Assembly (NCBI RefSeq): GCF_000526215.1
Contig: NZ_JAFQ01000004.1
Coordinates: 5,022,001 to 5,086,000, forward strand
DNA from: Nocardia sp. BMG51109
GTDB taxonomy: Bacteria; Actinomycetota; Actinomycetes; Mycobacteriales; Mycobacteriaceae
Length of the DNA stretch: 64,000 bases
Reading direction: 5' to 3'
Position numbers and translations under genes: made by a program. Below the pieces are notes generated by a model that was not told the DNA's origin, made no database searches, and saw only the letters and a list, made by a program, of their open reading frames with translations. How positions within the stretch are numbered: the stretch's first letter is position 1; each line of letters begins with the position of its first letter. Positions 29,442 through 42,819 of the stretch are shown one piece after another.

Positions 29442-29460
29442 CTGTGCCGCACCACTTTTC

Positions 29461-29515
29461 CGAACCGACAGCCCCGAACCGACAGCCCCGAACCGACAGC
29501 CCCGAACCGACAGCT
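29461..29515 (+). repeat. 15-bp tandem repeat (3.7 copies) after cysNC
   Basis: Units begin CGAACCGACAGCCCC at 29461, 29476 and 29491, with a partial fourth. They lie between the cysNC stop and ATG 29525. If translation instead started at GTG 29438 (overlapping the cysNC stop as GTGA), the repeat would encode a Pro/Asn/Arg-rich leader. Confidence 0.85.
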
Positions 29516-29524
29516 AGGAACCCG

Positions 29525-38874: not shown

Positions 38875-39753
38875 ATGAGTTCATCTCCCCCGTCAGCGCC
38901 AGATCCCAACGGCCCGGGGATCGTCAGCGCTCAGGAAAGCCAGGCCAAGATCCGCAAGCAGCGGCGAATGCGCCGCAGGGTGGCGGGTGGCATGGTTCTT
39001 CTGATGGGCCTCGCCGGAGCCGGCTTCGCGGCCTCGGCGCTGACCCCGCAGGCGCAGGTCGCGACGGCGAACGAGGACCAGTCGGCGCTGATCCGCGAGG
39101 GTAAGCAGGTCTACGACACCTCCTGCGTCACCTGTCACGGCGCCAACCTGCAGGGCGTGCAGGACCGCGGCCCCAGCCTGATCGGCGTCGGCGAGGCCGC
39201 CGTGTACTTCCAGGTGTCCACCGGGCGCATGCCCGCCGCCACCAACGGCGCGCAGATCGTGCGCAAGCCACCGAAGTTCGACGAGCGGCAGACCGACGCG
39301 CTGGGCGCCTACATCGCGGCCAACGGCGGCGGACCGACGCTGGTGCGCGACGCCAAGGGCGAGGTCGAGCAGGAGTCGATGACCGAGGGCGCCGACCTGG
39401 GCCGCGGCGGTGAGCTGTTCCGGATGAACTGCGCCTCCTGCCACAACTTCACCGGTAAGGGCGGCGCGCTGTCGTCGGGTAAGTTCGCGCCGGCGCTCGA
39501 CGAGGCCAACGAGCAGCAGATCTACGCCGCGATGCTGAGCGGTCCGCAGAACATGCCGAAGTTCTCCGACCGCGAGCTGACGCCGGAGGAGAAGCGCGAC
39601 ATCGTCGCCTACGTCAAGGACCGGACGGAGTCCCACCCCGAGGGCGGCTACGGCCTGGGCGGCTTCGGCCCCGCCACCGAGGGCCTGGCCATCTGGGTCG
39701 TGGGCATCGTGGTTCTGGTCGGCTCGGCGATGTGGATCGGCTCCCGGTCATGA
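38875..39753 (+). CDS. qcrC: cytochrome bc1 complex diheme cytochrome c subunit (QcrC)
   Basis: A 292-residue membrane-anchored cytochrome cc. One helix near the N-terminus ([19 protein letters not shown]) and one at the C-terminus ([17 protein letters not shown]) flank two heme domains, with CVTCH (84-88) and CASCH (186-190). In actinobacteria this subunit replaces soluble cytochrome c and passes electrons from the Rieske protein to CtaC within the bc1-aa3 supercomplex. Its TGA overlaps the first ATG of the 77-bp repeat array. Confidence 0.96.
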
Positions 39754-39830
39754 GCGCGTCAGGCCCGGAGGCGGCAGCGGAGCGTAACCACGGAGGGCCC
39801 GCGGTCATGGCCGAAAGGATGCTGCCATGA
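39750..39830 (+). CDS. first repeat-encoded 26-residue peptide
   Basis: Reads [16 protein letters not shown] then [10 protein letters not shown], and stops with TGA overlapping the next start. It begins on the last bases of qcrC. It probably serves translational coupling; stable protein is not shown. Confidence 0.35.
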
Positions 39831-39907
39831 TCGCGTCAGGCCCGGAGGCGGCAGCGGAGCGTAACCACGGAGGGCCCGCGGTCATGGCCGAAAGGATGCT
39901 GCCATGA
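39827..39907 (+). CDS. second repeat-encoded 26-residue peptide
   Basis: Identical to the first except Ile at position 2 ([12 protein letters not shown]). GAAAGGA precedes its ATG, so ribosomes could start here anew as well as re-initiate after the first peptide. Confidence 0.35.
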   Translation: MIASGPEAAAERNHGGPAVMAERMLP

Positions 39908-39984
39908 TCGCGTCAGGCCCGGAGGCGGCAGCGGAGCGTAACCACGGAGGGCCCGCGGTCATGGCCGAAAGGATGCTGTCATGA
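39904..39984 (+). CDS. third repeat-encoded 26-residue peptide, coupled to qcrA
   Basis: As the second, but ending MLS; its TGA (39982-39984) overlaps the qcrA ATG at 39981. It is the step that hands translation over to the Rieske subunit. Confidence 0.35.
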
Positions 39985-41165
39985 GCGAGCGCGGGACGAG
40001 TGAACAGGAGCGAAACGACATGGGCGCGCCCGACGACGGCAAGCCGGGGGACGAGTTGAACCCCACCGAGGAGCAGCTCGACGCGATGTCGCGGGACGAG
40101 CTGGTCGAGCTCGGCACCAAACGCGACGGTGTCGACGTCGCCTATCGTGCCCCGCGCTGGCCGGTTCCGGGCACCCGCGCGGAGAAGCGGGCCGAGCGCC
40201 AGGTGGCGCTGTGGTTCGGGCTGTCGGCGATCGCGGCGCTCGGCCTGGTCGCCGTGTTCCTGTTCTGGCCGTGGGAGTACAAGAGCCGGCACGAGGACGG
40301 CGCCGGTCTGTACTCGCTGACCACCCCGCTGTACGGCCTCACGCTGGGCGTGGCGGTGCTGGCGATCGGCATCGCGGTGGTGCTGATCCGCAAGAAGTTC
40401 GTCCCGGCGGAGATCTCCATCCAGGACCGCCACGACGGCAGGTCCGCCGAGGTGGAGCGGCGCACCCTGGCCGCCGAGCTGCAGGACGCGCTGGAGACCT
40501 CCACGCTGGGCCGCCGCAAGATGATCACCCGCACCGCGGGTCTCGGCGCGGGCGTGCTGGGCATCGGCGCGCTGTTCATGTTCGTCGGCGGCATGATCAA
40601 GAACCCGTGGGCCAAGGGCGACAAGTCGCCGCTGTGGGTGTCGGGCTGGACGCCGGACTACCCGGGTCAGACCATCTACATCCGCAAGGACGTCGGCCGT
40701 CCCGACGACGTGGTGCTGGTGCGGCCCGAGGATCTGGACGCCGGCGGCATGGAGACCGTGTTCCCCTGGAAAGAGGAGTGGCGCGGCAACGAGCACGAGA
40801 CGCTGGAGTCGCTGCGCGGCATCCGCAACGCGGTCATGCTGATCCGGCTGCGCACCGAGGACGCGCAGAAGGCGATCAAGCGCAAGGGGCAGGAGAGCTT
40901 CAACTACGGCGACTACTTCGCCTACTCGAAGATCTGCACCCACCTCGGCTGCCCGACCTCGCTGTTCGAGCAGCAGACCAACCGCATCCTGTGCCCGTGC
41001 CACCAGTCGCAGTTCTCGGCCACCGAGTGGGGTAAGCCGGTCTTCGGCCCCGCCGCCCGGGCGCTGCCGCAGCTGCCGATCACCGTCAACTCCGAGGGCT
41101 TCCTGGTCGCCAACGGCGACTTCATCGAGCCGCTCGGTCCGGCTTACTGGGAGCGTCGTTCATGA
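39981..41165 (+). CDS. qcrA: cytochrome bc1 complex Rieske iron-sulfur subunit (QcrA)
   Basis: A 394-residue actinobacterial Rieske protein with three N-terminal membrane helices ([57 protein letters not shown]) and the C-terminal 2Fe-2S domain with CTHLGC and CPCHQSQF. The annotated ATG 39981 follows the repeat array. ATG 40020, with CAGGAG upstream, is an alternative that removes a [13 protein letters not shown] segment resembling the leader peptides seen elsewhere in the window. Its stop overlaps the qcrB start (ATGA). Confidence 0.95.
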
Positions 41166-42790
41166 GTCCTAGCAAAGCGGCCGCACAGGCCAACGAGATG
41201 GATGAGCGCTATCACATGGCGGCGTTCGTCAAGCGGTCGATCAACAAGGTCTTCCCGACCCACTGGTCGTTCCTGCTCGGCGAGATCGCCATGTACTCGT
41301 TCATCATCCTGCTGCTGTCGGGTGTGTACCTGACGCTGTTCTTCGATCCGTCGATGAGCGAGGTCGTCTACGACGGCGCCTACCAGCCGCTGCGCGGCGT
41401 CACCATGTCGCGGGCCTTCGAGACCGCCCTGAACATCTCCTTCGAGGTGCGCGGCGGCCTGTTCGTGCGGCAGGTGCACCACTGGGCGGCGCTGCTGTTC
41501 GCGGCGTCGATCATCGTCCACCTGTTCCGCATCTTCTTCACCGGCGCGTTCCGCAAGCCGCGCGAGGCGAACTGGGTGATCGGCTCGCTGCTGCTGATCC
41601 TGGCGATGTTCGAGGGCTTCTTCGGCTACTCGCTGCCCGACGACCTGCTGTCGGGGACCGGCCTGCGGGCCGCCTTCTCGGGCATCACGATCTCGATCCC
41701 GCTGATCGGCACCTGGATGCACTGGCTGATGTTCGGCGGAGACTTCCCCGGCGACATCATCATCCCGCGCCTGTACATCGCGCACGTGCTGCTGTTCCCG
41801 GGCATCATCCTGGCGCTGATCGCGGCGCACGTGGCGCTGGTGTGGTACCAGAAGCACACCCAGTTCCCCGGCCCGGGCCGCACCGAGAAGAACGTCGTGG
41901 GCACCCGCATCGTGCCGGTGTTCGCGCTGGACCAGGGCGCGTTCTTCATGTTCACCCTGGGCCTGGTCGCGCTGATGGGCGGCGTGCTGCAGATCAACCC
42001 GATCTGGAACCTGGGTCCCTACAACCCCTCTCAGGTGTCGGCGGGTTCGCAGCCCGACTTCTACATGATGTGGACCGACGGCATGGCGCGCCTGATGCCG
42101 CCGTGGGAGCTGTACCTGGGCCGGTACACCATCCCGGCGGTGTTCTGGGTGGCGCTGCTGATGGGCCTGGTGTTCACCGTGCTGATCGCCTACCCGTGGA
42201 TCGAGAAGCGGCTGACCGGCGACGACGCCCGGCACAACCTGCTGCAGCGGCCGCGGGACGTGCCGGTGCGCACGGCGATCGGCGCCATGGCGATCACGTT
42301 CTACCTGGTGCTGACCCTGGCGTGCGTCAACGACATCATCGCCTACAAGTTCGACATCTCGCTGAACGCGACGACGTGGTTCTTCCGCATCGGCCTGCTG
42401 GTCGGGCCGCCGCTCGCGTACTTCCTCGCCTACCGGTTGTGCCTGGGCCTGCAGCGCAGCGACCGGCAGGTGCTCGAGCACGGCATCGAGACCGGCGTGA
42501 TCAAGCGGCTGCCGCACGGCGAGTACATCGAGGTGCACCAGCCGCTGGGCCCGGTCGACCAGCACGGCCACCCGATCCCGCTGGAGTACCAGGGCGCGCC
42601 GGTGCCGAAGAAGATGAACAAGCTGGGATGGGCCGGCAAGCCCGGTCTGGGCTCGTTCCTCCGCTCGGACCCGGCCGATCAGGCCGAGCAGCTCACCTCC
42701 TACGAGAAGGAGGAGCACCACAAGCAGCTGGAGATCCTGGCCGAATACCAGGAGCAGTCCAGCGGCGAGGGCGACAAGCACGGACACTGA
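41162..42790 (+). CDS. qcrB: cytochrome bc1 complex cytochrome b subunit (QcrB)
   Basis: A 542-residue di-heme cytochrome b. Heme-ligand histidines lie in [20 protein letters not shown] and [27 protein letters not shown] (shorter blocks), and the quinol-site motif is the PDDLL-type loop ([15 protein letters not shown]) with a PPW motif (LMPPWELY). A long charged C-terminal tail ([15 protein letters not shown]) is typical of actinobacteria. QcrB is the target of telacebec-type drugs in mycobacteria. It ends the operon, with a hairpin 53 bp after its stop. Confidence 0.96.
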
Positions 42791-42819
42791 GTTCGCGAAG
42801 CACGGACACTGAGTTCGCG
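42776..42819 (+). repeat. 22-bp direct duplication across the qcrB stop
   Basis: AAGCACGGACACTGAGTTCG plus CG occurs at 42776-42797, including the qcrB TGA, and again at 42798-42819. It is a perfect head-to-tail copy. Confidence 0.88.

Follow-up and report, generated by a model that had tools for sequence, protein, structure and literature searches.

The triplicated unit between qcrC and qcrA

The window, i.e., the whole stretch of 64,000 nt that we analyzed from the genome of Nocardia sp. BMG51109, contains qcrC (38875..39753) followed by qcrA (39981..41165), both on the forward strand. The limits of qcrC were taken from the ORF list and the sequence and those of qcrA from the ORF list, and both names come from an earlier reading of the sequence; a QcrA homologue is present in all 148 genomes of the genus. 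The two genes are joined by three 77-bp units on the forward strand: unit 1 (39750..39826), unit 2 (39827..39903), and unit 3 (39904..39980). TRF reports a tandem array with a period of 77, 3.1 copies, and 98% matches. Unit 1 differs from unit 2 by a single base (AGC/ATC), and unit 2 from unit 3 at the penultimate base (CC/TC). The preliminary description of three 77-bp copies running from the stop of qcrC to the ATG of qcrA is thus borne out by both the sequence and TRF.

The stop codon of qcrC (TGA, 39751-39753) is shared with the ATG of the first unit in an ATGA overlap. The small ORF of unit 1 runs from the ATG at 39750 to the TGA at 39828-39830, and the ORF list starts it at an in-frame GTG at 39732. 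The following ORFs of 26 codons occupy 39827-39907 in unit 2 and 39904-39984 in unit 3, and the last one terminates in the ATGA of qcrA, whose own ORF comes next. A Shine-Dalgarno-like GAAAGGA is found on the same strand at 39813..39819, 39890..39896, and 39967..39973, seven bases from the next ATG in all three units; the third copy precedes the qcrA ATG with a duplex energy of -9.6. The sequence and the ORF list agree in this respect with the preliminary description, which had reported a GAAAGGA, an ATG, and a 26-codon ATGA-coupled ORF in each unit. In unit 2, the left arm of a palindrome (39827..39835, forward strand) pairs with a right arm (39877..39885) according to the RNA fold and to covariation across loci, and units 1 and 3 have their arms at identical offsets. 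Our covariance model of the element matches the three units at 39749-39811 (74.1 bits), 39826-39888 (74.5 bits), and 39903-39965 (74.5 bits), and no further copy was found in the 64-kb window at E ≤0.01. Two other repeats were observed in the window: a perfect 22-bp tandem duplication (42776-42819) across the stop of the ORF that follows qcrA (41162-42790) and about four repeats of a 14-bp unit (29460-29522).

A dispersed family of palindromic elements

The unit of the array is one member of a dispersed family, whose elements consist of a palindrome of about 60 bp and a tail ending near GGACACAG, for a total of 72-78 bp per unit. In the genome of the window (8.79 Mb in four contigs), at least 43 BLAST matches to the array were identified, array included; this number is a lower bound as 40 of the 69 candidates were scored. 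We retained 39 other places, which together with the window make up a set of 40 loci. The covariance model identified 69 units at E ≤0.01 in 38 of these loci, the exceptions being L041 and L047, where no unit reached this threshold. Spacing between units is mostly 72 to 78 bp. It had been proposed that the length of 77 = 3n+2 keeps every junction coupled at any copy number; this holds in the array, but other loci also show spacings of 72, 74, 75, 76, and 78 bp.

The exact core pattern was found in 136 of the 148 genomes of the genus and occurs 42 times in the genome of the window, and its reversed version, used as a control, did not occur in any of the 148 genomes. The dispersion of the family and this difference from the control indicate that the array is not a product of chance. 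The preliminary description had proposed a search of the unit against its own genome and those of relatives, and this search yielded a family rather than an isolated repeat: the element is real, recurrent, and genus-wide. In the wider bacterial family, the covariance model matched 30 of 301 genomes, 29 from the genus and one from another genus, with the qualification that this model, derived from 16 units of the window genome, was used with stricter filters, so that distant relatives could be missed. Because the unit counts of the model cover the best 18 candidates per genome, we used core-pattern counts for comparisons among genomes. The genome of the other genus (66% complete, 560 contigs) carries three 75-bp units at an ATGA (L239:1420-1800), which may reflect transfer, old ancestry, or misbinning. 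A limited literature search on Nocardia MIRUs and palindromic extragenic repeats found no publication on this element.

The arms of the palindrome differ between loci and are complementary within each locus, as exemplified by the pairs CATGAGCGG/CCGCTCATG, GCACCCGCG/CGCGGGTGC, and CCCGCTCGG/CCGAGCGGG. Across 38 loci with one element each, complementarity averaged 8.8 between the arms of the same element versus 6.05 for swapped arms, a value that none of 5000 permutations reached. Since MAFFT misregistered the arms when the subfamilies were mixed, a subset in a single register was modeled. In this alignment, 91.8% of the cells are paired and two-sided changes occur at 13 of the 17 pairs. Covariation scores 0.291, compared with 0.023-0.037 when the partners are slid, on an alignment that was itself fitted to the structure. 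The two-sided changes are found in the two outer helices, and the helix of the loop presents none in the model alignment. The fold of a single window unit is no more stable than those of shuffled sequences (z 0.10), and an unusually stable hairpin was thus not borne out. No Rfam family matched the element in the window or in the 17 loci searched; one sub-threshold match to mir-939 was obtained outside the element.

Elements at operon junctions

By hand assignment, the element lies in the sense direction of a family-matched host or neighbor in 35 of the 40 loci, and the other five have no assignment. One locus differs from the operon junctions: two units are located directly 5' of a response-regulator gene, and no gene in the sense direction was resolved on their upstream side (L011:1121-1255).

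The qcrC-qcrA junction was compared across 147 genomes of the genus, one of the 148 junctions having been excluded because a premature stop interrupted the reading of its qcrC (L225, whose letters show a direct ATGA start and no insert). Three genomes with long qcrA N-termini (L194, L195, and L207) were set by hand to carry no insert. In total, 95 of the 147 junctions lack an insert, 90 of them with a start/stop overlap, and 52 carry one. A recognizable core was identified in 32 of these 52 inserts, with three units in the window, two in L203 and L209, and one in the remaining genomes. Copy-number typing, also proposed in the preliminary description, thus shows 0, 1, or 2 recognizable units in relatives, and the window genome is alone among the 147 in carrying three. 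The other 20 inserts have no core; three of them (L083, L167, and L175) appear to contain a different repeat of the GCGAGCGGAGCGAGCGAAC type, likewise with an ATGA-coupled ORF.

The distribution of the inserts indicates repeated gain and loss. On a quick qcrC tree, in which 45 of 144 inner branches are weak, all 52 inserts require at least 32 state changes, at least 20 of which are forced by the starred branches. The 32 recognizable elements, counted without the 20 core-less inserts, require 25 changes, at least 17 of them forced. These recognizable elements are little more clustered on the tree than in shuffles (15-26 of 500 shuffles gave values as low). As the genomes are related, counts of genomes do not represent independent events.

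All 52 inserts are spanned by open ORFs that connect the qcrC stop with the qcrA start. The first ORF starts at the qcrC stop with ATG in 45 inserts and GTG in seven, and its length ranges from 14 to 51 codons. At qcrA, the ORF ends in an ATGA in 38 inserts, in an 8-base overlap in 13, and in an 11-base overlap in one. The 38 ATGA cases comprise 36 single ORFs and ATGA-linked chains of three ORFs in the window and two in L203. None of the 52 inserts fuses its ORF to qcrA. Based on the pairing of the pre-start region with the tail of the 16S rRNA, the mean Shine-Dalgarno energy before qcrA is -7.7 kcal/mol with an insert (n=52, -3.0 to -10.0) versus -5.1 kcal/mol without (n=90); five of the 52 inserts present a Shine-Dalgarno weaker than -5.1.

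A second junction, lysC-asd, was examined in the best-scoring 30 loci from 59 genomes. Seven of these, including that of the window genome, carry one or two units; in the other 23, stop and start are separated by 2-3 bases. In all seven element-bearing loci, an open ORF terminates in the immediate vicinity of the asd start: one overlaps the start by 1 base, four end 2-4 bases short of it, and two end 16 bases into asd.

Elements within protein-coding genes

In 13 of the 40 loci, the element is found in the sense direction and in an open frame within a family-matched gene. The host genes encode a phosphomannomutase (with three 72-bp units), an acetate-CoA ligase, GlnE, CysH, a mannosyltransferase, a PALP-family enzyme, MurE, a CbbX-like AAA protein, NadE, an AMP-binding NRPS-type protein, a CofH-type protein, a ChsH2 OB-fold protein, and a bPH-domain protein. 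The PALP-family enzyme and the CbbX-like protein score below the curated cut-offs of NCBIfam and above those of Pfam. MurE, ManB, and NadE were each compared with relatives among the best-scoring 30 loci of 59 genomes. The MurE gene of the window genome is 75 nt longer than those of 25 of 29 relatives; at this site, the other four (L279-L282) hold a different in-frame insert, 54-57 nt long. For ManB, all 29 relatives are shorter by 237 nt. The 75-nt insert of NadE is found in the window genome and in none of the 29 relatives, which differ by -15 to +9 nt.

In the alignment with the best solved MurE chain, both flanks of the insert are matched and the break falls at the insert itself. We also predicted a model of MurE, for which Foldseek ranked MurE structures at the top. 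Residues 181-208, nearly all of which belong to the insert, have a pLDDT <50 against a fold mean of 78.6; the model is based on 24 sequences, few of them with letters at the insert, which by itself lowers the confidence of the model there.

Reading frame and arms of the element

The core of the element, GCGTAACC, reads TAA in one of its sense frames. This stop-prone phase is used in none of 11 in-gene loci (of the 13, L016 and L047 have no core match) and at none of the 32 qcrC-qcrA junctions with a core. The other two phases are both used, five and six times within genes, and 12 (phase 1) and 20 (phase 2) times at qcrC-qcrA. At 25 of the 32 junctions and in nine of the 11 in-gene loci, the triplet in the stop-prone phase is an actual stop codon (TAA, TAG, or TGA). 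The avoidance of one phase and the use of both others imply that openness is kept and not the peptide sequence: with two core frames in use, the conserved amino acid sequence that a functional small protein should present is not found, and a peptide is unlikely to be the product of the element. The arms vary with the habitat as well. Arms with ATGA or GTGA were found in none of the 13 in-gene loci and in 21 of the 27 others (Fisher p 2e-6; classes and arm letters were listed by hand).

Comparison with mycobacterial interspersed repetitive units

Mycobacterial interspersed repetitive units (MIRUs) were reportedly described by Supply et al. in 1997. According to two reports, units of 77 bp are found at senX3-regX3 (PMC4213456; PMC2453075), and another describes MIRUs as carrying a small ORF and inserting at start codons with a -4 spacing (PMC12548453). 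The preliminary description had interpreted the array as a MIRU-type element. As far as architecture is concerned, this stands: the element is dispersed, arranged in tandem, and lies in the same direction as its neighbors in the 35 assigned loci, and empty and filled sites at the start codons of operon genes are observed at both qcrC-qcrA and lysC-asd. The ends of its small ORF overlap the neighboring stop and start at qcrC-qcrA, with ATGA junctions, and lie within a few bases of them or overlap them at lysC-asd. Membership in the MIRU family is not supported, as no similarity beyond chance to the one MIRU unit compared was found.

This 77-bp unit was taken from a contig labeled Bacillus subtilis SK7B5, the end of which looks like senX3 of the tuberculosis complex with 77-bp MIRU units (L257:2900-3327). 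The contig was identified from the ETR-D primer given in one source (PMC2453075; two contigs matched), the repeat, and the published layout, and its label probably results from contamination or mislabeling. The MIRU40 primer had no exact match in the genome contigs. Nhmmer found no match between the L257 unit and the element family. The best local score between the unit and the element was 19, a value reached by 440 of 500 shuffles; scores between members of the element family are 40 or higher. The L257 unit matched 52 of 301 genomes of the bacterial family, many over part of its length, and none from the genus of the window, window genome included. Its 3' half (about positions 38-65) matches alone in several other genera of that family; judging from these partial matches, the MIRU unit may be composite.

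Discussion

We identified a family of palindromic elements with covarying arms that has been gained and lost at fixed sites, is inserted in frame within genes, and carries open ORFs at junctions. The array is likely a translation-tolerant palindromic repeat, locally triplicated at qcrC-qcrA, which resembles a MIRU between genes and a Rickettsia palindromic element within them. Neutrality to translation would account for the persistence of the element. The core usually presents a stop in one sense frame and leaves two frames open, so that an element within a gene can provide a linker of about 25 residues per unit. At a junction of stop and start codons, ribosomes that end the upstream gene would be captured by the start codon of the element, carried across by its short ORF, and handed on to the downstream gene by its ATGA and Shine-Dalgarno. 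The array between qcrC and qcrA would form three such coupled relay ORFs. Relay translation, neutrality, and the mode of movement are inferences, in contrast to the sequence facts above. The peptides from the units are probably by-products, an effect of copy number on the level of QcrA is possible, and the openness and frame of the ORFs could result from survivorship alone.

A translation-tolerant repeat would connect coupled relay ORFs, as known between genes, with palindromic insertions, as known separately within proteins. Provided that they are translated as predicted, these loci constitute natural multi-species tests of ribosome passage through stop/start overlaps and of the tolerance of MurE, ManB, and NadE for 25-79 extra residues.

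It is conceivable, though rather improbable, that the reading frame is the niche of a single mobile family, which inserts at stop/start junctions as well as within genes while leaving translation intact and fits its arms to the habitat, perhaps through an insertion mechanism that makes one arm a copy of the target and the other arm its complement. Two rival explanations appear improbable. The first is that the number of units acts as a dial under selection at this locus, with the number of relay ORFs setting the QcrA:QcrC ratio. Species do carry 0, 1, 2, or 3 recognizable units and every unit brings with it another Shine-Dalgarno and coupled ORF, but most of the 147 genomes have no insert and a single one has three units. 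Moreover, the presence of the same element in unrelated genes and at other junctions implies that the qcrC-qcrA site is not special. The second is that the element is a REP-like RNA hairpin with a regulatory, processing, or stabilizing role in the mRNA, and that translation through the hairpin is incidental; we consider this equally doubtful. The covariation of the two outer helices and the sense direction in the 35 hand-assigned loci would agree with such a role, but the fold is not unusually stable and Rfam has no match on the element, and the in-gene insertions together with the habitat-dependent arms point to a fit with the reading frame.

Homology with the repeats of Mycobacterium tuberculosis, i.e., a true MIRU common to this genus, is very unlikely. 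It would be favored by the 77-bp length given for the senX3-regX3 unit (PMC4213456; PMC2453075), the small ORF, and the insertion at start codons, for which PMC12548453 gives a -4 spacing in MIRUs, but the absence of any nhmmer match, the shuffle-level local score, and the absence of the genus from the 52 matching genomes weigh against it as far as the one unit compared is concerned. It is even less probable that the 26-residue peptide is a functional microprotein: its ORF is open in all 52 qcrC-qcrA inserts, but two core frames are used, so that the amino acid sequence is not conserved, and the length of the first ORF varies. Finally, the preliminary description had allowed for an artefact of a single assembly or a unit occurring nowhere else, and near-identical units are prone to copy-number misassembly, but one, two, or degenerate units occupy the same junction in many other assemblies and the family extends across the genome, which makes an artefact exceedingly improbable.

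Comparison with known systems

The translation-tolerant repeat that we favor can be compared with three known systems. REP/BIME elements are short dispersed palindromes associated with RAYT transposases. Our element is likewise a short dispersed palindrome, but it is fitted to reading frames and the genome of the window lacks a Y1 transposase. Mobilization by a RAYT was not borne out, since no match to the Y1 (RAYT-type) domain PF01797 was found in that genome; matches were obtained in three of the 19 genomes of the genus searched.

Rickettsia palindromic elements are about 100-150 bp long and are inserted in frame within conserved protein ORFs, where they are read as an extra segment. Our element shares with them in-frame palindromic repeats inside conserved protein genes: its palindromic structure is kept, and in-frame insertions missing from relatives were found in the three genes compared. 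In contrast to them, our element is 72-78 bp long and often in tandem, and it is also found at stop/start junctions with its own start codon and Shine-Dalgarno.

The element resembles MIRUs, as presented in PMC12548453, by its short tandem units at operon junctions, its small ORF, its insertion at start codons, and its -4 coupling. It is unlike them in that it is a covarying palindrome that also occurs in frame inside genes and has no similarity beyond chance to the one MIRU unit compared. On these sequence comparisons, the resemblance is architectural, which suggests that elements not descended from MIRUs can come to share their architecture.
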